Below are positions 28,070 to 46,076 of a DNA stretch of 46,076 nt, in pieces (the first letter of the stretch is position 1; every line of letters begins with the position of its first letter). The notes under the pieces are model-generated. The model was not told the DNA's origin, searched no databases, and worked only from the letters and a program-made list of their open reading frames with translations. A program made the position numbers and the translations under genes. Origin of the DNA: Verrucomicrobiota bacterium (GTDB lineage Bacteria; Verrucomicrobiota; Verrucomicrobiia; Limisphaerales; UBA1100); assembly GCA_028343615.1 (NCBI GenBank), contig JAOLZA010000018.1, positions 1 to 46,076 of the forward strand. The letters are read 5' to 3'.

Positions 28070-28176
28070 GATAAATGCCTTTTCGTTAGGGTTGCTGTGT
28101 TTGTAGGGAAAGTATCGCTCAATCTAGGAGAACGCGCAACCCTGATGTGCCACCCATTGAGACTGGCAGGCTTGTC

Positions 28177-28191
28177 ATCGATTTTATCGAT
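28177..28191. repeat. Double ATCGAT site in divergent promoter region
   Basis: Two copies of the palindrome ATCGAT separated by TTT lie between the divergent SPFH operon and the acyltransferase gene. It could be an operator; no other copy supports this. Confidence 0.2.
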
Positions 28192-28231
28192 TTCCACTCC
28201 TAGGCTTCTTGCGGTAGAGTTCGGCCCACGG

Positions 28232-30379
28232 ATGAATATTTGGGCGAATCGATTATTTTTGAAACTGATGCGTTGCGGACTGCGGGTGTGGTTTCGTTTT
28301 CGCGCGATCAACGAGGAGGCCACGCGTGGCGAGGGGCCGTTGCTGCTGGTCCCGAATCATCTTTCGTGGATTGATTGGCTGTTCGTGGGCCTTTGCCTAG
28401 ATCCGGATTGGAAATTTGCCGCATCGGAAATGCCAGCGCGCACCAGCAAACTCCACGCGTGGATTCTCGGCAATCCGCGCATCATTCTGATTGGAGCCGA
28501 CCCGGTGGCGTCGTTGAAAAAAATGACGTCGCATCTCGAGGCGGGCGGTAAGTTGCTACTCTTTGCTGAAGGGCGGATGAGCCGCACGGGGAGTTTGCAG
28601 CGGCTCTTTGATGGCACGGGGTTTCTCGTCCAAAAAACAAATGCGAAGGTGATCACATGTTATTTGCGCGGCGCGGCGCGGGTGTTGGCGAGCCCGCACG
28701 GGGGTTGGACGAAGTGGTTCCCAAAAGTGACGGCGCATTTCAGTGACCCCGTCGAGCCGCCGCAATATGAGGGTAAGCCAGCGGAGCAACGGGCGAAGCT
28801 CAACCAATGGCTGCGTGATCGGATGGTGAATCAGCAGTTTGAAACTGAGATGGAGCACGGCCCGCAAACGATTATCACCGCGCTGGCCGCGTTGGCTAAA
28901 CAAATTCCGCATGAGGTGGCACTGGAGGATATGACGTTTCAAACGTTGACCTATAGGCGACTGCTTATTGGCACAGATTTGCTGGCCGCGCAGTGGGAGC
29001 GGCTACTGAACAAACGCGCTGAACGCGTGGGGGTAATGCTGCCGAACGTGAATGGTAAGGTGGCCACGCTTGCCAGTTTGTGGGCGTGCGGCAAAGTGCC
29101 GGCGGTTTTGAATTACAGCGCCGGTGTAGCCACGATGCTGCAGTGCGCGGAGCTGGCAGGCATTAAACAGATTATCACGTCGAAAGCGTTTTTAGAAAAA
29201 GCAAAACTGGAGCCGGAACCGTTTGAGGCAGCGGGGGTGGAGTTGGTTTATCTGGAGGACGTGCGCGAAAACATTTCCGGCCTCAGCAAAATTTTCACGT
29301 TGCTGAACCACAAGCTTAACCCGCTCGCGGGACATTACACACCGTTTACCGACACGGCGGTGGTCCTCTTCACGAGCGGCTCCGAGGGCGTGCCCAAGGG
29401 CGTGGAACTGACCCATCATAATCTACTCGCCAACGTGCGCCAATGCGACTCGGTGATCGATCTCAAAGAATCCGATCGTTTTTTTACCTGCCTGCCGCTC
29501 TTCCACAGCTTTGGGCTCACGGCGGGCTTGTTGCTGCCGCTGTTGCGCGGCAATTTTGTTTACCTGTTTCCATCGCCGCTGATGTACCGGCAAATCCCTA
29601 TGGTGTTTTATGATCGCGATTGCACGGTGATGCTTGCAACGAATACTTTTCTCAACGGCTATGCACGTTTTGGCCAAGCTGCTGATTTCGCCGAGCTACG
29701 TTATGTGATTTGTGGGGCCGAAAAAATTCAAGAAGCCACGCGTGACGTGTGGGCGCGGAAGTTCGGCGTGAGCTTAATGGAAGGCTACGGCGCTACCGAA
29801 ACCGGCCCCGTGCTCAGCACCAGCACCATCCTCGAAAGCCGCGAGGGCGCGGTGGGTCGGCTGTTCCCCGGTGTCGACTATCGGCTGGAGAAAGTCGATG
29901 GAGTGGAGGAAGGGGGCAAGTTATTGGTCAAAGGCCCGAACATTATGAAGGGCTACCTCAACCCCGAGCCCAACGCGGAATTTCAAAAACTCGATGGTTG
30001 GTACGACACCGGCGACATCGTCACCGTGGACGAGGACCGCTACATCACCATCAAAGGACGAGCCAAGCGCTTTGCAAAAATTAGTGGCGAAATGGTCAGC
30101 CTCACCGCCGTGGAAAATGCATTGGCCGGAGCGTTCCCGCAACACGGAGAAGATTGCGCCGTCGCCGTTGTGGCCCGACCCGATGCGGAAAAAGGGGAGC
30201 AACTCATCGCCGCCACCAATAAATCCGCGCTCGAGTTGGGCGAAATTCGCGAAGCCATCACCGCCGCTGGTTTGCCCAACCTCGCTGCTCCCCGCGAAAT
30301 CAAAGTGCTCGAAGAAATCCCGGTCCTCGGCTCCGGCAAAACAAATTATCCGGAATTGAACAAATTAGTTCAGAGCTAG
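28232..30379 (+). CDS. aas: Bifunctional acyltransferase/acyl-ACP synthetase (Aas-like)
   Basis: 715 residues from the ATG at 28232, almost the length of E. coli Aas. The frame is open to 28097, but those 45 residues look non-coding and precede the conserved acyltransferase start. The N-terminal PlsC-like domain has NH43LSWID48 (HX4D) and FAEGRMSRTGSL. The C-terminal AMP-forming ligase domain has VVLFTSGSEGVPKGVELTHH (P-loop), GYGATETGP and the hinge YDTGDIVTVDE...IKGRAKRFAKISGE. Aas re-acylates lysophosphatidylethanolamine with fatty acid activated on ACP, at the inner membrane. No MFS domain (LplT) is fused. It is divergent from the SPFH operon and convergent with the ABC exporter. Confidence 0.88.
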   Translation: MNIWANRLFLKLMRCGLRVWFRFRAINEEATRGEGPLLLVPNHLSWIDWLFVGLCLDPDWKFAASEMPARTSKLHAWILGNPRIILIGADPVASLKKMTSHLEAGGKLLLFAEGRMSRTGSLQRLFDGTGFLVQKTNAKVITCYLRGAARVLASPHGGWTKWFPKVTAHFSDPVEPPQYEGKPAEQRAKLNQWLRDRMVNQQFETEMEHGPQTIITALAALAKQIPHEVALEDMTFQTLTYRRLLIGTDLLAAQWERLLNKRAERVGVMLPNVNGKVATLASLWACGKVPAVLNYSAGVATMLQCAELAGIKQIITSKAFLEKAKLEPEPFEAAGVELVYLEDVRENISGLSKIFTLLNHKLNPLAGHYTPFTDTAVVLFTSGSEGVPKGVELTHHNLLANVRQCDSVIDLKESDRFFTCLPLFHSFGLTAGLLLPLLRGNFVYLFPSPLMYRQIPMVFYDRDCTVMLATNTFLNGYARFGQAADFAELRYVICGAEKIQEATRDVWARKFGVSLMEGYGATETGPVLSTSTILESREGAVGRLFPGVDYRLEKVDGVEEGGKLLVKGPNIMKGYLNPEPNAEFQKLDGWYDTGDIVTVDEDRYITIKGRAKRFAKISGEMVSLTAVENALAGAFPQHGEDCAVAVVARPDAEKGEQLIAATNKSALELGEIREAITAAGLPNLAAPREIKVLEEIPVLGSGKTNYPELNKLVQS

Positions 30380-34794: not shown

Positions 34795-34823
34795 GTAGGG
34801 CGTGCTCTCAGAGCGCGACCTAC
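34795..34823. repeat. 29-nt palindrome between convergent genes
   Basis: GTAGGGCGTGCTCT-C-AGAGCGCGACCTAC forms a 14-bp stem with one G.A mismatch and one G.U pair (effective loop about 7 nt). It starts 11 nt after the helicase stop and contains the apbE stop codon. Without a T-tract it resembles REP-type intergenic palindromes more than a terminator. Only one copy is present in this window. Confidence 0.45.
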
Positions 34824-35689
34824 TGCAAAACACGCATTCCCACTGGCGCTTCCAATTCCGGCTCCACCAAAAACGCTGTCGCCCACGCATCACTTTCCGT
34901 GGCGGAATCGCACACCACCACAGCTACGCGTGCCGCTTGCGTGGGGTGGCCTGTGCGGGGATCGATGACGTGGCCTTGTTCGTTGCCTTTAGCGTCAATG
35001 AATGACTTACCGCCGATGCCGGAAACGGACAGCGATTCATTATGCAAATCAACAAATTGCAGCGGCAACTGGTTTTCATCGGGATGTTCCACTGCCACGC
35101 GCCAGGGAGTTCCATTGGCTTGGGTGCCGCGCGCGTAGACGGTGCTGGTGCCACCGTGGATGAGGAAATTTTCAAATCCATTTTCGAGCAATAACGCAGC
35201 GGCGCACTCCAGCGCGTAACCTTTGCCGATAGAGCCGAGGTCGAGCATCACACGATCTCGCGCGAATTGTACGGTGGTTTCGGTGGCGTTAAGTTGGATG
35301 TGCTGCATCCCCGTGCACGTAAGAGCTGCAGTGATGGCATCGGCGGTGGGTTCCGCGCCGCTGTCGTTCATGAAACGCCAGCACTTCGTCAATGGCGCGA
35401 GGGTGATGTCGAAGGTGCCTTGGGTTTGTTGGCTCAAATCCATGCAGCGTTCGAGCAGCGTGAAGACTTCAGGTGATATCCGCACGGGCTCGAGCGAGGC
35501 GCGTTGGTTGAGGTGGGCAATTTCGCTGGTGGGTTGGTACAGGCTTAGGATGCTTTCGAGTCGTACGATTTCCGCCAGCGCCTCTTCGGCGGCGGCTCGC
35601 AAAGTGGCTTCGGGCGCGCCGTGTATGGCGACCTCGAAGCGAGTGGCCATCGCCTCGGCGGCGACGGTGGTGGGATGCTGGACGGTCAT
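34820..35689 (-). CDS. apbE: FAD:protein FMN transferase
   Basis: 289 residues. ApbE links FMN to Thr/Ser of flavoproteins such as NqrB/C and RnfG/D through a Mg-dependent reaction with FAD. Family motifs: ATRFEVAIHG near the N-terminus, FDITLAPLTKCW, LDLGSIGKGYALE, FLIHGGTSTVYARG, GHVIDPRTGHP and the metal-site region SDAWATAF. Unlike most ApbE proteins there is no signal peptide or lipobox, which suggests a cytosolic form. No nqr, rnf or FMN-binding-domain gene is in the window. The start is only 22 nt after a strong terminator. Confidence 0.93.
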   Translation of the reverse strand: MTVQHPTTVAAEAMATRFEVAIHGAPEATLRAAAEEALAEIVRLESILSLYQPTSEIAHLNQRASLEPVRISPEVFTLLERCMDLSQQTQGTFDITLAPLTKCWRFMNDSGAEPTADAITAALTCTGMQHIQLNATETTVQFARDRVMLDLGSIGKGYALECAAALLLENGFENFLIHGGTSTVYARGTQANGTPWRVAVEHPDENQLPLQFVDLHNESLSVSGIGGKSFIDAKGNEQGHVIDPRTGHPTQAARVAVVVCDSATESDAWATAFLVEPELEAPVGMRVLQ

Positions 35690-39255: not shown

Positions 39256-40143
39256 TTACAAACCCAGATGGCCCAAGGCAAGCAGCCCGTAAAAAGTATA
39301 CTCGCAGTCGAGATAGTCATCCGACCAATGGCCGTGGAAACCGCCGGTGGCGTTCCAGAGGGAATCAACGAAGTCGAGGCAGCGCTCGGTTTCCTCCTCA
39401 GTGAGTCGCATGTCCAACGCGGCCAGCGCGTGGAGGGTGGTGGCGGTGGAGAGGAGATCGGGCATGGGCGCGCCAGGCACGGCGACGAAGCCGCCTTGCG
39501 GATGCAGCCGTGCGCGCAGCCATTGGCCGACTTCTACGTTGATGGGGAGGTGCAGATTATTGAGAAGCACCACCGCGCCTGCGGTGGGGTTAGTGGAGCC
39601 GATGGGGAGGTTGGGATGATTGTTCCACGCGTGATCGGGCGTCTCCAGTTTTTTGAGGCTCTGCAAAATACGCAGCGGCTTGGGAGGCAGCTTCCCCATA
39701 TCCTGATACGCGCCGAGGGCGAGGAAGGAGCCGTACGCCGTGCCGTGCTCGCGTTTCAGGTTATTGTCCCAACCGCCACACGGTTTGCGAAAGGACTCAA
39801 GGCGTTGAAGCAGTTTAACCCGCAAGCCTTTCGGCATTCTATCTTTTCCCAGCGAACCCCAACAACGCGTGAGGCCACTAAGGTGCACGAGGTCCAGCCC
39901 ATCGCCATCAGCAAACGTGCCTAGGAATTTTTCAACCGTATCGAGATTCGGTTCCGCTTGAAAGACCGCCAGCGCATCCAGCCCGAACACGGTGTAGTAC
40001 AGATCACTCTTCCCCGAGCGATCCTTGAAGCCACCATCCGGATTCTGCTGTCCCCGGAGAAATTCCTTAACCAACCCCGCCGCTTCCCCCAACACAGCTG
40101 GGGCCAGCCGCGCCACCTGCAACATTTCGAGGCGGAGGCTCAT
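39256..40143 (-). CDS. Prenyltransferase/terpene-cyclase-repeat protein
   Basis: 295 residues made of alpha-alpha barrel repeats with QQNPDGGFKD, FRKPCGGWDNN, LHPQGGFVAVPG and LWNATGGFHGHW, the pattern of the beta-subunit prenyltransferase and squalene-cyclase repeat superfamily. The DxDD and DCTAE motifs of class II cyclases are absent. The protein-prenyltransferase zinc triad is incomplete (only DCEYTFYG is reminiscent), so catalysis is uncertain. No signal peptide. It follows the DUF116-polyprenyl synthase gene by 16 nt, so an isoprenoid ligand is a fair inference. Confidence 0.78.
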   Translation of the reverse strand: MSLRLEMLQVARLAPAVLGEAAGLVKEFLRGQQNPDGGFKDRSGKSDLYYTVFGLDALAVFQAEPNLDTVEKFLGTFADGDGLDLVHLSGLTRCWGSLGKDRMPKGLRVKLLQRLESFRKPCGGWDNNLKREHGTAYGSFLALGAYQDMGKLPPKPLRILQSLKKLETPDHAWNNHPNLPIGSTNPTAGAVVLLNNLHLPINVEVGQWLRARLHPQGGFVAVPGAPMPDLLSTATTLHALAALDMRLTEEETERCLDFVDSLWNATGGFHGHWSDDYLDCEYTFYGLLALGHLGL

Positions 40144-40159
40144 GAATTAGAGGAAACGA

Positions 40160-41911
40160 CTAAGCGACCACTTGCGCTCCGTTGCCGTTTTTGGCACGGA
40201 CCTTTTCCAGCTCGCTGATTTCTTGAACTTCGCTGCACCAGCCCTTGACAACGGTGTCGTTGAAAATTTTACCGATGACGCGGCGGAGGAGGCCTTTGAG
40301 GTTGGCGTTTTCCAAATCGTTCAGTGAGCGGATGGCGAGTTCTTTGTAAGTGATCTGCAAATCCTCGGCGCGTTTTACGGCTTTGAGGTCGAGGTACCAT
40401 TGCTCGATTTGCGGGAAGTTGACGCCTTCCGGCAACTGCCGACGCCACACTTGGGCGAGTTGTTCCTTTTGATCGCTCTTTGCCTTTTCGTGCGCGATGG
40501 CGAGCAACAGAGTGGGCCGGAGGCCGGCGAGGTCGTTAGTGTCACCTTCCTCGCCGAGGTCGGAGAGGTCGTCGCGAATTTGATAGGCGATACCGAGATT
40601 TTTACTATACTCGCCGAGTACTTCGGAGACTTCCTCGTACTTGTCAATATCGGCAGCAATGGAGCCAAGGCGCAGAGCGACTTCAAATGCGGGTGCGGTT
40701 TTTTGGCGGAAAATATCGAGCACCTGCACGGACTTGAGCGGCTCGGGTTTGCGCTGCCAAACCAGCTCCGCGCCTTGGCCGCGGCAGAGGTGGCGTTGGC
40801 CATTTGCTGCTACTTGTAGCATCGCGGCGCGTTGTTCAGCGGAGAGGGTCGTTTCGCCGAGGAGGCGATAGCCTTCACCGATAAGGAGGTCGCCGACATT
40901 GAGCGCCACGCCGAGGCCGTGTTCTTCGTGCAAAGTTTTTTCACCGTAACGCTCGGCGTCTTCGTCCTCGATGTCGTCGTGGATGAGTGAGGCTTTGTGG
41001 AAACACTCGACGGCGACGGCGACTTTTTTGAGGTCATTCGGAATGGCTTTCGTGGCATCATCGCGCAGGGCTTGATACGCCGCCACGCTGAGGAATGGCC
41101 GCCAGCGTTTGCCGGCGCGTGCGAGCCAAGCGCGGCCGATGAATTCAGTTTCGCCTTCGACCTCGCCCATAATAGCAGTAAGCGATTCGGGCGTGAACCA
41201 CGTTTCCACTTCGTCGTGCAGCCCGCTCAAATCCAAACGGCGCGTGTGGTCGTCACTGGTGAGGTATATATAATCCCAAATCCAATCCTCATCGACGGCG
41301 GTGTCGATGCAATCATCCTGCAGCAACGGAATCGCCACGCCCGGCACGGCCGCCGCTTCCATGTACGGGAAGGCACGTTCGAGTACGGGGATACACGCCA
41401 CGCCGACGATGGCGTCAATCTTGCCGGTTTGGATGAGGCTCATCACGATGGCACTGCCCTCGGCGACGAGCGCCGCATAGCCAAGCTTCTCCGCCTCGTA
41501 TTCCAAGTCCTGAATGCTGCACAGCCCGCAGCTCTTGCAAAGCAGCCCAAACTCATCAAAGGGTGCTGGGCACTTGGCCTCCACGCGAAGGCATTTGGGG
41601 ACCATCAACAGGCGGCGCTCGAAGGGCACGGCGGCGAGCGTTTCGCGCCAGAGTTCGTTGTTGATGAGAATGCCGATGTAGTCGCGGTAAATTTCCTTGG
41701 TCCCGAGCGCGGAGACCAATTCGTCCGCGTGTACTTTGAGGTCCTCCATCGGCACTGGCGGCACAAGGGTTTGTTCGGCTACATAATGCCGCACCTCCCG
41801 CAGGATGGTTTCGCGTTCTTCGCGGGTCTGGGGAATATTCTCTCGCGGCGTCCGCGGCTTGCGCTGCGGAATGACCCGTGGAATTTTCAGTGGTGCGCTG
41901 GCGGTAGTCAT
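40160..41911 (-). CDS. DUF116-polyprenyl diphosphate synthase fusion
   Basis: 583 residues. An N-terminal DUF116 domain (about 60-205) carries a Cys set C107, C114, C125, C128, C131, suited to a Fe-S or metal centre. The C-terminal trans-isoprenyl diphosphate synthase (about 255-480) has GKRWRP (267-272), the first Asp-rich motif D312-D-I-E-D316 (HDDIEDED) and the second D447-D-L-S-D451. Both Mg-binding motifs are intact, so it should condense IPP with an allylic diphosphate; chain length is not predictable. About 100 extra C-terminal residues follow the usual domain. No signal peptide. It is 91 nt downstream of the ferredoxin gene and 16 nt upstream of the prenyltransferase-repeat gene. Confidence 0.88.
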   Translation of the reverse strand: MTTASAPLKIPRVIPQRKPRTPRENIPQTREERETILREVRHYVAEQTLVPPVPMEDLKVHADELVSALGTKEIYRDYIGILINNELWRETLAAVPFERRLLMVPKCLRVEAKCPAPFDEFGLLCKSCGLCSIQDLEYEAEKLGYAALVAEGSAIVMSLIQTGKIDAIVGVACIPVLERAFPYMEAAAVPGVAIPLLQDDCIDTAVDEDWIWDYIYLTSDDHTRRLDLSGLHDEVETWFTPESLTAIMGEVEGETEFIGRAWLARAGKRWRPFLSVAAYQALRDDATKAIPNDLKKVAVAVECFHKASLIHDDIEDEDAERYGEKTLHEEHGLGVALNVGDLLIGEGYRLLGETTLSAEQRAAMLQVAANGQRHLCRGQGAELVWQRKPEPLKSVQVLDIFRQKTAPAFEVALRLGSIAADIDKYEEVSEVLGEYSKNLGIAYQIRDDLSDLGEEGDTNDLAGLRPTLLLAIAHEKAKSDQKEQLAQVWRRQLPEGVNFPQIEQWYLDLKAVKRAEDLQITYKELAIRSLNDLENANLKGLLRRVIGKIFNDTVVKGWCSEVQEISELEKVRAKNGNGAQVVA

Positions 41912-42002
41912 TCAGTTTCAAAGCCGGCCGAGCCGGTGGCGTTGCGTTTGCGGCAGTTTCGCTGATGTGAGACGCCAATGCGAGTGGAATGTTTCAGGCA
42001 AG

Positions 42003-42863
42003 TTAACCTGACTTCTGAGCCGCCAAGGCTGCCGTTGCCTTGGCGTTCGCAGCGGCTGATTTTTCAGCAATTTCATCGGCGCTGGGGAGGCTTTGCAAAA
42101 CTTCGAGAGGGATGTCGATGTCGGCTTCGGCGGCGAGTTTGGTGAGGCACTTGGTGCGTTCGCCAAGCGCTTTGTCCGAGCTGCGTTCTTTGGAAAAACG
42201 ACTGCGTGAGCGTTGGCTTCTGTCGCGGAGCATTTGGTATATGTCACCGCCGAGCAGCGCGGAGATGTCAATTTTCATTTTCTCGCGATTGAGGTCACCA
42301 TCGCTCACCACGTCGCCATTGATGGGGCCGCTTTTGTATTTAGGAAACATAATGGCCGCTTCGGGGCACACGCGACTGCAAGCGGGACAGTTGGTTTTGC
42401 AGTTGTCGTTGTTTTGTACTTGGATTTCCTGCTCGTCATCTACCCCGTAAACGTCGAATAAACAAAACGAGAGACACTGCATGCAGTTCGTGCAGCGGTC
42501 GTAATCGATGACCGGAAACCACGGCTTCCATTCGCCGTGCTGAGCGGTTTGGGTGGACTTGCGTTCCTCCTCAACTAGCGCCGTGATGCCCTCGGAATCG
42601 AGCCCATCAATATCGCGAAACCGAATTGGCACCGCGCCATTGGCATCCTCTGCCTCCGGCGTTTGGCCATTTTCAAAACGCCCGAGCACCAACAGCGCAC
42701 TGTCATCTGCCGGGGCCACTGCGCCCGAGCCGGCGCAAGTTACTGCGTACCCTTTACCCAGCAGCGCAGTCAACGTGGAGCCACGTTCCGCCGCATCCAA
42801 AGTTGCCGCGCCCGCGCCCTCATAAAGGACGATTCGCAAAGTTATCTCGTCAGCAATGGCCAT
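42003..42863 (-). CDS. Ferredoxin-type protein with two [4Fe-4S] clusters
   Basis: 286 residues. The first cluster motif is C124-x2-C127-x2-C130-x3-C134; the second is C155-x3-C159-x2-C162-x3-C166-P. A long insert (FDVYGVDDEQEIQVQNN) separates them. The N-terminal ~100 residues form an unrecognised alpha/beta domain, and the C-terminal ~100 are charged helical sequence ending in an Ala-rich tail (SAAANAKATAALAAQ). It is cytosolic and most likely an electron carrier or Fe-S subunit. It starts 2 nt after the HdrA-like gene stop, implying tight coupling and possibly a complex of the two. Confidence 0.85.
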   Translation of the reverse strand: MAIADEITLRIVLYEGAGAATLDAAERGSTLTALLGKGYAVTCAGSGAVAPADDSALLVLGRFENGQTPEAEDANGAVPIRFRDIDGLDSEGITALVEEERKSTQTAQHGEWKPWFPVIDYDRCTNCMQCLSFCLFDVYGVDDEQEIQVQNNDNCKTNCPACSRVCPEAAIMFPKYKSGPINGDVVSDGDLNREKMKIDISALLGGDIYQMLRDRSQRSRSRFSKERSSDKALGERTKCLTKLAAEADIDIPLEVLQSLPSADEIAEKSAAANAKATAALAAQKSG

Positions 42864-42865
42864 TG

Positions 42866-43312
42866 TTAAATTTTCTTTTCCCCTTCCGTCGCAGCCGCCA
42901 ATCCATCGGCGGCCAGATTGGGAGTCACCTTTTCATCAAGTAGCGCGCGCGCCGCATCTTTGGCGGATAATTCGCGCATATTCACCACCTCCGTACGATC
43001 GGCACTCAATGGCGCTTGGCACCCACCGAAAAGCCATTTCACCGCCCGTGGATAACAAGCCGCGATTTTTACTGGGGCCTCCCCCGCCGCCAGCCGTTTG
43101 AGTGCCGGATCACGCCGCGCGGCCATTTCGCACAAATCCGCTACTGCCTCAAAAGCTTGGCCCGATTCACACAGCGATTGCAGCACGCCGGCCTTCACCT
43201 CCTCCGGCACCACTTGTGCGTAGTTGCAATGGCAAAAAAGAATGCGGGGTTTGTCGGCCATGAATGCGGAGAGGGTATAGGCGCGCGCTGCCTTTGCCAA
43301 CGCGGAAGTCAC
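42866..43312 (-). CDS. Small HdrA-like cysteine protein
   Basis: 148 residues from a GTG at 43312 that overlaps the upstream stop (GTGA), which argues for coupled translation; an ATG at 43261 (MADKPRILFCHC) is the alternative. The pattern ILFC27-H-C29-NYAQVV ... DLCEMA ... VKIAACYPRAVKWLF matches the N-terminal domain of heterodisulfide reductase subunit HdrA and HdrA-like proteins (CxC-G, LC, AACSPR...LF). The FAD domain and ferredoxin domains of full HdrA are absent. The ferredoxin function may be supplied by the next gene. Activity unknown; a thiol or Fe-S relay is plausible. Confidence 0.65.
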   Translation of the reverse strand: MTSALAKAARAYTLSAFMADKPRILFCHCNYAQVVPEEVKAGVLQSLCESGQAFEAVADLCEMAARRDPALKRLAAGEAPVKIAACYPRAVKWLFGGCQAPLSADRTEVVNMRELSAKDAARALLDEKVTPNLAADGLAAATEGEKKI

Positions 43313-44418
43313 ATGAGGTCGGTCACACGGTGGGTGGGCTCTGGCTTGCCGGGGCGGAAGTGTTCGAGGTGGTCGAGGGTGGCGGTGAGGGCTTTTGGGG
43401 TGTTAGCGAGGGCGGTTTCGACGGCGGCTTTTAATGTTTCAGGGTCGCCTTCGGCGCGGAGGTTTATAATGAGTTGGGCGCTTTCGATGGGGGAATCGAG
43501 GTCGGCGGAGAGTTCGGGTACGAAATCGTTTCGCACGAGGTTGATGATGGCGACTTGGCCATCGAGGCCCGCATCGGGGCTGAGGGTCATTTTTAGGTGG
43601 GCGATTTCGGCGGAGGCTTCGTCGAGTTGCGATTGGATGTCAGTGGCAAATTGTTGCAGCACGGGCTGGGCTTTGAATGGGGAGGCAGCGCGAAGCTGCA
43701 CGGTGGCGTTGAGCCAGCCGAGCAGGGATTCGCCTTCGGCGTAGAGTTCGTAATCTACTTCCATCACGGCGCGGGCGATTTGCTCGGCCTCGGTGATGCG
43801 GGCGAACCATTCCTCCAGGGACTCGCCGTTGCGGGCGGAGATTTGGAGGATTTCGGCGTTTGGAAATTCTCCGCTGAGTTTGTCGTGCAGTGCGGCAAGC
43901 GCGGCGGGCTCAATCAGGTCGGTCTTGTTGATGACGATGAGGTCGGCTTCCTCGAGTTGTTTGCGGTAAATATAAGTGACCTTTTCAGAAAACTGGCCGC
44001 CTACGCTCAGGCCAAAAATGCGCGCGGCGCGAATGGGGTCAACCAACACGCTTAATGGCGCGATGCTGAAGTCGTCGCCATAAATTCGCCGCAGCGGATA
44101 GGTGACCGTGGCCACAAGGTCGGTGCAACTGCCAACTGGTTCGGCGATGAACACATCCGGTCGCGATTGTTCAGTGAGTTTGTTGGCGGCATCGACGAGT
44201 GAATTGAACCGGCAACAAAAACAGCCACCGGGGATTTCTTCCGTGGTAAATCCCTTTGCGCGCAGCATCGCGGTATCAACCAACTCGCGACCTTGATCGT
44301 TGGTGATGAGCCCAACGGTGCTGCCGGTTTTGGTCAAGTGCTGCGCCAGCGCGGCGACGCAAGTGGTTTTGCCCGCGCCGAGGAAGCCGCCAATCATAAT
44401 ATAACGTGCGCGGCTCAT
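43309..44418 (-). CDS. G3E-family (CobW-type) GTPase
   Basis: 369 residues. Walker A GGFLGAGKTT (10-19), the metal motif C66-F-C68-C69 in PGGCFCC, the Asp/Glu switch region FIAEPVGSC and the guanine motif VINKTDLIEP identify a G3E P-loop GTPase (CobW/HypB/UreG/MeaB group). CXCC-bearing members are metallochaperones that insert Zn, Co or Ni using GTP. The C-terminal ~150 residues differ from the standard CobW_C domain. The ATG overlaps the upstream gcvH-like stop (ATGA), and its own TGA overlaps the next start, so stoichiometric expression with the lipoyl carrier and HdrA-like protein is likely. Confidence 0.9.
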   Translation of the reverse strand: MSRARYIMIGGFLGAGKTTCVAALAQHLTKTGSTVGLITNDQGRELVDTAMLRAKGFTTEEIPGGCFCCRFNSLVDAANKLTEQSRPDVFIAEPVGSCTDLVATVTYPLRRIYGDDFSIAPLSVLVDPIRAARIFGLSVGGQFSEKVTYIYRKQLEEADLIVINKTDLIEPAALAALHDKLSGEFPNAEILQISARNGESLEEWFARITEAEQIARAVMEVDYELYAEGESLLGWLNATVQLRAASPFKAQPVLQQFATDIQSQLDEASAEIAHLKMTLSPDAGLDGQVAIINLVRNDFVPELSADLDSPIESAQLIINLRAEGDPETLKAAVETALANTPKALTATLDHLEHFRPGKPEPTHRVTDLM

Positions 44419-44879
44419 TCCTGTGCTTTTTGTTGTTCGAGCATTTTATCGATGGTTTGGTTGAGGATAGCGGCGTAGCCCTCGGCGTCCACGCATTTGT
44501 CATCGAGCGCCCCGCGCGCTTCATAGAGCCAGCCGCCGCCGTAGGGTTTTTTGTTAATGAGCGCGATGTTTGTTTGTAGCTCGAGGTTTGTGTCAGTAAA
44601 TTCCCCGTGTGTAAAAGCGTACACATCGGAGATTGCCTTGAATCCCTCCACCCATCCGAGAATTTGCCCCGGCTCAATCGCCGAGGTAGCCTTCACCTCG
44701 AAGCCGTGGTCCACCATATCCCCCAACATTCTTGTGGCGAATTTTGTAAACCCAATCCGCCACACGCTATCGGCCATTTCCCGGGCCCAGAAATGCGATG
44801 GGCTGTAAACGTAATCCACAGGCAAACGCGTGGCGAAATGCGTGCGCTTGAACAGCAGCGTTTTGTTTTCAGATGCCAT
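44415..44879 (-). CDS. Orphan GcvH-like lipoyl carrier protein
   Basis: 154 residues from the ATG at 44879; the longer frame to 44996 runs into the divergent gene and looks non-coding. It has the H-protein fold pattern: YSPSHFWAREMADSVWRIGF, TKFATRMLGDMVDHGFEV, the lipoyl-Lys site EGFK81AISDVY and the late motif PYGGGWLYEARG. Lipoylated H-proteins shuttle methylamine or, in the sHdr pathway, sulfur-bound intermediates. No gcvP, gcvT or lipoate ligase is near, and the carrier is instead the first gene of an Fe-S/GTPase/isoprenoid operon. This makes a role outside glycine cleavage likely. No Shine-Dalgarno is evident. Confidence 0.85.
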   Translation of the reverse strand: MASENKTLLFKRTHFATRLPVDYVYSPSHFWAREMADSVWRIGFTKFATRMLGDMVDHGFEVKATSAIEPGQILGWVEGFKAISDVYAFTHGEFTDTNLELQTNIALINKKPYGGGWLYEARGALDDKCVDAEGYAAILNQTIDKMLEQQKAQE

Positions 44880-44968
44880 GCGTGCCGTGAAGGTTTCTGA
44901 AACTATCGGGTGAGGCAAGCCACAAAAGTCTCGAAAGCCAACAGCCGGTGCGTATCCTGCCCATCCGC

Positions 44969-46076
44969 ATGATTTATTTCGACCACAATGCCACATCGCC
45001 GTTGAGTGACGCCGCGCGTGAGGCGTGGGTGGATGCGAGTGACCGGTTGGTGGGGAATCCTTCGAGTCCGCATCGGTTGGGGGCGCGGACGGAGAAGGCG
45101 TTGGCGGATGCGCGCGAGCAGTTGGCGGGGTTTTTGAGGTCCGAGGTATCGGATATTATTTGGACTTCAGGCGCGACTGAATCGAGCAATATGGTGATGT
45201 ATCACTATGCAGAGACGCTCGCGCCGGATACGGAGGTTTGGGTTTCGGCGATTGAGCATCCGTGTGTGTTGGAGGCCGCGCGTTCGCATTTTGGTGAGTG
45301 CTTGAAAACATTGCCGGTGACGTTGAGAGGTGTTTTAGATTTAGATGCTTTACGTGAGCGATTGGGGAAGCAGCGGCCTGGGCTCATTTCGGTGATGGCG
45401 GCGAATAATGAAACGGGGGTACTGCAGCCGTGGCGCGAGGTACGGGAGGTTTGTGCGGAGCACGACGTCCCGTTTTTTTGTGATGCGGCGCAGTGGATTG
45501 GCAAGCTGCCTTCAGTGGATTTAGGGGAGTGCGATTTTGTGAGCGGCTGCGCGCATAAATTTGGTGGACCGACAGGGGTAGGTTTTTTGAAGTGTCCGGC
45601 GCAAGGTGGTGTACGGTCGCAAATGGTCGGCGGGCCGCAGGAGGAAGGCCGGCGCGCGGGCACGGAAAATGTGGCCGGTGTGCTCTCGATGATAGCGGCA
45701 CTGGCGGAGCGCGAGGCGGCTTTGGTAAGCAACACTATTATAGAAAGAGAAGCGTGGCGGAATGCATTCGCGGCGAACCTCGCGGATGCGACAATTCTGG
45801 GCAAAGGAGAAGGCCGTTTGTGGAACACGGTTTCCGCATTGCTGCCGGGTGATTGCCGAGCGCGTTGGGTCGTGAAGCTCGATAAAGCGGGCTTCGCAGT
45901 TTCCACCGGTAGCGCCTGCGCCAGCGGCAAGGAAGCGCCAAGCCACGTACTCACGGCAATGGGTTTGGCGGCGGATGAAACCGACCGCGTGGTACGTTTT
46001 AGCAGCGGTTGGGAAACGACGGCGGATGACTGGCAAGCTTTGGCCAAAGGCGTCACCGAAGTGGCAGCCGATTTTT
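44969..46076 (+). CDS. Cysteine desulfurase, NifS/IscS type (3' end outside window)
   Basis: The frame is open from the ATG at 44969 to the window edge (369 codons). MIYFDHNATSPLS is the canonical start of class V PLP aminotransferases of the NifS/IscS group. IWTSGATESSNMV, AIEHPCVLEAA, AANNETGVLQPW, FFCDAAQWIGK, the PLP-lysine motif GCAHKFGGPTG and the active-site Cys loop STGSACASGKEAPSHVL follow in order. It releases sulfur from cysteine for Fe-S clusters or thio-cofactors. It is divergent from the lipoyl-carrier operon, sharing an 89-bp region. IscU is not seen. Only the last few residues should be missing. Confidence 0.95.
   Translation, partial: MIYFDHNATSPLSDAAREAWVDASDRLVGNPSSPHRLGARTEKALADAREQLAGFLRSEVSDIIWTSGATESSNMVMYHYAETLAPDTEVWVSAIEHPCVLEAARSHFGECLKTLPVTLRGVLDLDALRERLGKQRPGLISVMAANNETGVLQPWREVREVCAEHDVPFFCDAAQWIGKLPSVDLGECDFVSGCAHKFGGPTGVGFLKCPAQGGVRSQMVGGPQEEGRRAGTENVAGVLSMIAALAEREAALVSNTIIEREAWRNAFAANLADATILGKGEGRLWNTVSALLPGDCRARWVVKLDKAGFAVSTGSACASGKEAPSHVLTAMGLAADETDRVVRFSSGWETTADDWQALAKGVTEVAADF

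Follow-up and report, generated by a model that had tools for sequence, protein, structure and literature searches.

A co-inherited gene set of Verrucomicrobiota that joins a DUF116-polyprenyl synthase fusion to a radical SAM enzyme and a class II cyclase, and may make a modified polyprenoid

Radical S-adenosylmethionine (SAM) chemistry on an isoprenoid lipid is known from Tes/GDGT-MAS (PMC8941075), and a lipoyl carrier working with Hdr-type proteins is known from the sHdr-LbpA system, whose shdr genes are usually accompanied by lipS1/lipS2 and sLpl(AB) (PMC10332631). Here we describe a gene set of Verrucomicrobiota that is seen in part on contig JAOLZA010000018.1 of assembly GCA_028343615.1 (46,076 nt, the whole stretch analysed, hereafter the window), from a genome that is 59% complete and in 129 contigs (G000). 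At positions 39256-46076 an initial annotation had listed six minus-strand genes and a divergent cysteine desulfurase, all of which were found in place, and had proposed that their Fe-S and isoprenoid halves form one system. This proposal is borne out by correlated profiles in 289 Verrucomicrobiota genomes, also where the genes are dispersed. The proteins constitute one co-inherited system with intact catalytic motifs, and its core comprises an HdrA-like protein with its ferredoxin, a radical SAM enzyme, a fusion of DUF116 to a trans-polyprenyl diphosphate synthase (DUF116-PPS), a toroid protein and a class II cyclase.

Phyletic profiles were obtained by searching the same 289 genomes with each protein. 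DUF116-PPS was detected in 52 genomes, the cyclase in 53, the radical SAM enzyme in 48, a NapH-like membrane ferredoxin in 46, the HdrA-like protein in 39 and a G3E GTPase in 19. The profiles of synthase, radical SAM enzyme and cyclase are almost identical, with DUF116-PPS present in all 48 radical SAM genomes and 51 of the 53 cyclase genomes; it is also present in 39/39 HdrA-like genomes, including one family with both genes unlinked. The HdrA-like count is a minimum, as three genomes (G007, G076 and G123) were negative with the window HdrA query yet carry an HdrA/ferredoxin fusion. Fisher p values against DUF116-PPS range from 1e-16 to 1e-53 across these genes and are overstated, since related genomes are treated as independent.

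General caution about related genomes, and nothing more, speaks for these genes being neighbours through inherited synteny only, with no common function, a reading that we consider extremely improbable given that the co-occurrence persists when the genes are dispersed. Family f8 retains all of the genes on separate contigs or more than 100 kb apart, except that the HdrA-like and ferredoxin genes stay adjacent and the radical SAM gene lies nearby in some members. Co-occurrence spans ∼22 families, down to ∼40% identity, and is not simple shared ancestry because, within the order to which the window's genome belongs, genera of a single family differ in whether they have the toroid gene. The initial annotation had named two outcomes that would speak against a single system, genes that are neighbours in one genome only and uncorrelated profiles; both were checked and neither was seen. 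With the ferredoxin as query, GTDB genomes yielded 163 relatives, and those listed by name were Verrucomicrobiota except for a few labelled “bacterium.” In this analysis, with Planctomycetota outside the search, the gene set is confined to Verrucomicrobiota. Several public metagenome-assembled genomes titled Akkermansia muciniphila carry the system (L016, L025, L027, L028, L052, and L056), and their gene content and neighborhoods suggest that these record titles are probably wrong.

Neighbor counts were taken from 80 loci, with the loci that have enough flank as denominators. The HdrA-like gene adjoins the ferredoxin gene in 68/73 loci and DUF116-PPS lies downstream of the ferredoxin in 32/62, while GcvH (26/55), G3E (24/55), and NifS (18/55) genes are found upstream. 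Clustering of the neighborhoods of relatives' loci brought up two further members: a radical SAM protein of ∼400 to 430 amino acids, encoded between the ferredoxin and DUF116-PPS in many loci, and a cyclase of ∼600 amino acids from the squalene-hopene cyclase family, encoded directly after the toroid protein. The window's genome encodes both, the first at positions 3387-4592 of contig C112 with its motifs intact and the second at 32324-34078 of contig C119 with an intact DxDD (a DADD acid motif). The genes listed in the initial annotation are thus all real but the list was incomplete, these two having been overlooked because they sit on other contigs. In deep-branching families, the operon runs from a PQQ-type propeller through an HdrA/ferredoxin fusion, the radical SAM enzyme, DUF116-PPS, the toroid protein, and the cyclase to more propellers, a multi-4Fe-4S protein, and the NapH-like protein. 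A gene order conserved across Verrucomicrobiota families, which the initial annotation would have taken as support for one system, is found in the deep families at 14 to 17 loci per core triplet (HdrA/ferredoxin, radical SAM, and DUF116-PPS in 15; radical SAM, DUF116-PPS, and toroid protein in 17; DUF116-PPS, toroid protein, and cyclase in 14).

On balance, we favor reading these genes as a dedicated extra pathway to a cyclized, radical-modified polyprenoid, with electrons supplied by the HdrA-like protein and ferredoxin. Co-occurrence is what was observed, and the chemistry, including reaction order, electron flow, and product, is what we infer.

The synthase half of DUF116-PPS (40160-41911, minus strand; residues ∼263 to 550, PF00348, 4e-41) would make a polyprenyl diphosphate. 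Its first Asp-rich motif (Asp312, Asp313, and Asp316) is kept in 60/60 relatives and its second nearly so (Asp447 in 59/60, Asp448 in 60/60, and Asp451 in 57/60). By an established rule, an alanine at position -5 from DDxxD favors products longer than C20, and Ala307 occupies this position in 60/60 relatives, so the predicted product is probably longer than C20. The enzyme is additional to housekeeping prenyl synthases, since other synthases are encoded in the window's genome (two) and in the genomes tested (one or two). In the DUF116 half (residues ∼67 to 214, PF01976, 5e-34), seven cysteines (107, 114, 125, 128, 131, 173, and 201) are kept in 60/60 relatives; the domain probably provides an Fe-S site alongside the synthase and may act as a redox site where the polyprenyl diphosphate emerges. 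DUF116, a Pfam domain of unknown function, thereby gains a testable setting, in which it has seven cysteines, shares a polypeptide with a prenyl synthase, and is inherited together with a radical SAM enzyme. None of 312 plasmid records covers 80% of the fusion, the ten best matches being ordinary prenyl synthases, and viral contigs held no relative.

The cyclase carries PF13243 (7.6e-36) and PF13249 (6.6e-19) domains and an invariant D354 x D356 D357, which place it in the squalene-hopene cyclase superfamily, and its profile matches squalene-hopene cyclase at 4e-37. We propose that it protonates and cyclizes the polyprenyl substrate. As a hopene cyclase proper it was rejected, with a TIGR01507 score of 101.9 against an equivalog cutoff of 431.1. 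In three genomes, a small putative thiol-disulfide protein of the DCC type (DGDCPMC) is encoded directly before the cyclase (L225:7968-8390, L226:7929-8339, and L230:8246-8740).

The toroid protein (39256-40143, minus strand; 295 amino acids, Pfam Prenyltrans 1.9e-12) has invariant residues Asp47, Tyr49, Asp229, Asp279, and Glu281 and lacks the DxDD motif typical of class II cyclases; it may bind or transfer the same prenoid as the cyclase. In an alignment with the beta subunits of farnesyltransferase and Rab geranylgeranyltransferase, the zinc ligands D/C/H read Asp279/Glu281/Tyr50, and it was rejected as a protein prenyltransferase beta subunit on the ground of this replaced triad.

The radical SAM enzyme (PF04055, 9e-13) has an invariant CxxxCxxC (Cys58, Cys62, and Cys65) and three further invariant cysteines toward the C terminus (Cys269, Cys288, and Cys328), and would functionalize an unactivated prenoid. 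Scores of 34.9 and 41.6 against an equivalog cutoff of 225 excluded it as HpnH. Its profile matches SkfB, BlsE, PqqE, and AhbC/NirJ and, weakly, the tetraether lipid synthase. These closest matches, and the kinship of the toroid protein with protein prenyltransferase beta subunits, would suit a peptide or protein substrate, in which case the radical SAM enzyme would be a SPASM-like maturase and prenylation of the peptide would fall to the toroid/cyclase pair. We regard this as quite unlikely, given that the zinc triad of the toroid protein is altered, that the cyclase bears a polyene-cyclase acid motif, and that the clustering, which left out open reading frames under 70 to 80 amino acids, turned up no small conserved gene for a precursor.

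Electrons of low potential would reach the radical SAM enzyme and/or the seven-cysteine DUF116 domain from the HdrA-like protein (42866-43312, minus strand) and the two-[4Fe-4S] ferredoxin (42003-42863, minus strand; Pfam Fer4/4Fe-4S dicluster), which form a functional unit since they are fused as one protein in deep-branching families. The eight ferredoxin cysteines are conserved in 83 relatives, and a divergent N-terminal domain of ∼110 amino acids precedes them. The initial annotation had described the HdrA-like protein as resembling an HdrA N terminus. Its CxC...C...AACxPR pattern is indeed conserved, with Cys27, Cys29, Cys61, and Cys86 invariant, but no sequence homology to HdrA was found: the protein matched no Pfam or NCBIfam family, a profile of 43 sequences matched no HdrA chain at E values up to 10, and the matches of NCBIfam HdrA models are practically confined to the ferredoxin part. 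A model of the HdrA/ferredoxin fusion (pLDDT 80) matches the folds of oxalate oxidoreductase delta, ferredoxins, and, weakly, HdrA, whose structures are among the best fold matches at E values of 0.02 to 0.1 and a TM-score of at most 0.20. “HdrA-like” therefore denotes a cysteine pattern and not proven homology.

The run of the deep operons into PQQ-type propellers, the NapH-like membrane ferredoxin, and a 4Fe-4S protein whose N terminus has a signal-like stretch raises another reading, in which the product is a redox-active, quinone-like membrane lipid whose head group is built and prenylated by the radical SAM enzyme, DUF116, and the toroid protein and which is used by NapG/NapH-like ferredoxins and PQQ-type propellers. 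DUF116-PPS is present in 39 of the 46 genomes with the NapH-like gene. Seven genomes have that gene without the synthase, however, it was not found in the window's genome (59% complete) or in the sampled members of family f8, and no head-group enzyme is recognizable, so we consider this reading unlikely, albeit the least unlikely of the alternatives. The NapH-like module is linked to the system but dispensable. In several families, a LolD/FtsX-like ABC transporter pair (L032:541-4586, L051, L151:17893-19000, and L169), a possible exporter of the product, is encoded at the border of the operon or close to it.

The lipoyl carrier, the G3E GTPase, and the cysteine desulfurase are accessory and found in a subset of lineages, where they may help the pathway, probably by supplying sulfur or Fe-S clusters. 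In the window, the GcvH-like carrier (44415-44879, minus strand; Pfam GCV_H, 1.1e-19) has its lipoyl lysine, Lys82, in the motif EGFKAxSD, and conservation of this residue is 90% or more in 32 aligned relatives; the carrier was rejected as the GcvH of glycine cleavage, with an NCBIfam gcvH score of 68.7 against an equivalog cutoff of 115.85. The CobW-type G3E GTPase (43309-44418, minus strand; Pfam cobW, 5.9e-26) has a GGCFCC metal motif that is conserved in 27 relatives, and its 19 genomes all lie among the 52 with DUF116-PPS, with none outside these at that threshold. The NifS-type cysteine desulfurase (44969-46076, plus strand; Pfam Aminotran_5, 3.6e-48) probably starts at ATG 44969, and its open reading frame is truncated at the contig end. 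Of the tight linkage described for the locus, the 4-nt overlaps at the GcvH-like/G3E and G3E/HdrA-like junctions and the 2-nt gap between the HdrA-like and ferredoxin genes are present (the gaps from ferredoxin to DUF116-PPS and on to the toroid gene being 91 and 16 nt), but the GTGA overlap of the HdrA-like and GTPase genes is doubtful because HdrA-like relatives begin near an internal Met, so the true start is probably ATG 43261. Two further window genes were recognized: a probable FAD:protein FMN transferase (ApbE-like, by eye; 34820-35689), which a small number of related loci also have downstream of their toroid gene, and an acyltransferase/AMP-ligase fusion (28097-30379), whose ligase part has a relative at L170:3-1589, close to the pathway operon in a distant family.

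The conserved lipoyl lysine, the HdrA-like cysteine pattern, and the adjacent cysteine desulfurase could also belong to a lipoyl-carrier-bound sulfur pathway akin to sHdr-LbpA, with the isoprenoid genes as bystanders. We judge this very unlikely, as the invariant part consists of the isoprenoid genes and the G3E gene occurs in only 19/52 genomes; since the accessory genes are limited to a subset, the carrier-bound chemistry guessed at in the initial annotation cannot be the common core. The analogy with sHdr-LbpA drawn there also fails on the defining genes. The locus has the lipoyl carrier but only a short HdrA-N-like protein in place of the HdrA, HdrB, and HdrC subunits: no HdrB or HdrC, for which no dedicated model was run, was recognized among the recurrent neighbor families, and no LipS1/S2 or sLpl(AB) was recognized in the neighborhoods, to which that search was limited.

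Several points weigh against a dedicated polyprenoid pathway. No member has a characterized orthologue and the product is unseen. The Fisher test counts related genomes as independent, the positives falling in ∼22 families. Those radical SAM relatives whose function is known work on peptides, sugars, and tetrapyrroles, so homology does not in itself point to a lipid substrate. A DUF116 model (pLDDT 85) gave no significant match among solved folds (best E value of 0.02), and the PDB holds no sequence relative of this domain. Finally, the cyclase substrate could be squalene instead of a polyprenyl diphosphate, and the window's genome has a squalene/phytoene-synthase-like gene, recognized by eye, at a distance of ∼6 kb from the cyclase gene (L217:16464-17462, contig C119). 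A gene of this type is near the cyclase in locus L227 too, and could supply it with squalene.

With the polyprenoid pathway as our preferred reading, we tentatively entertain a bolder one, to which we give less credence. In it, bacteria throughout the phylum would make a membrane lipid or redox carrier that has not been described, a cyclized polyprenoid with a hydrocarbon skeleton rebuilt by the radical SAM enzyme; DUF116 would be a new type of Fe-S enzyme domain with polyprenyl diphosphate as its direct substrate, and many lineages would couple the product to an electron chain of NapGH and PQQ-type propellers. The pathway predicts that Verrucomicrobiota common in soils, fresh waters, and the sea contain an isoprenoid not seen so far, which, if a membrane lipid, may serve as a biomarker. 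Some carriers are in culture (Chthoniobacter flavus, Brevifollis gellanilyticus, and Verrucomicrobium sp.), and lipid profiling could find the product quickly.

All components except the HdrA-like protein fall, by their sequences, in known superfamilies, whereas the gene combination and the DUF116 fusion match no described pathway in the open-licence literature searched, in agreement with the initial annotation. With sHdr-LbpA, the locus shares a GcvH-like carrier with a lipoyl lysine, the HdrA-like cysteine pattern, and a ferredoxin, but the carrier is merely accessory in the verrucomicrobial system. The toroid protein shares the alpha-alpha toroid fold of the farnesyltransferase and Rab geranylgeranyltransferase beta subunits (sequence match, E value of 7e-5) and differs in its zinc ligands, with no alpha subunit recognized. 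Bacterial meroterpenoid and diterpene class II cyclases (for example, PDB 7xr7, 8zg1, and 5bp8) match the cyclase profile over the catalytic domain and, as here, have a prenyl synthase encoded alongside, although they score lower than squalene-hopene cyclase and no aromatic head-group enzyme is recognizable in the cluster. The radical SAM enzyme has a weak profile match to Tes/GDGT-MAS (7tol, E value of 1e-5 over the core domain), without orthology. Hopanoid biosynthesis, with squalene-hopene cyclase and HpnH, likewise pairs a DxDD polyene cyclase with a radical SAM enzyme from the same superfamilies for an isoprenoid lipid, and to this pair the verrucomicrobial cluster adds a DUF116-polyprenyl synthase, an HdrA-like protein, and a ferredoxin.

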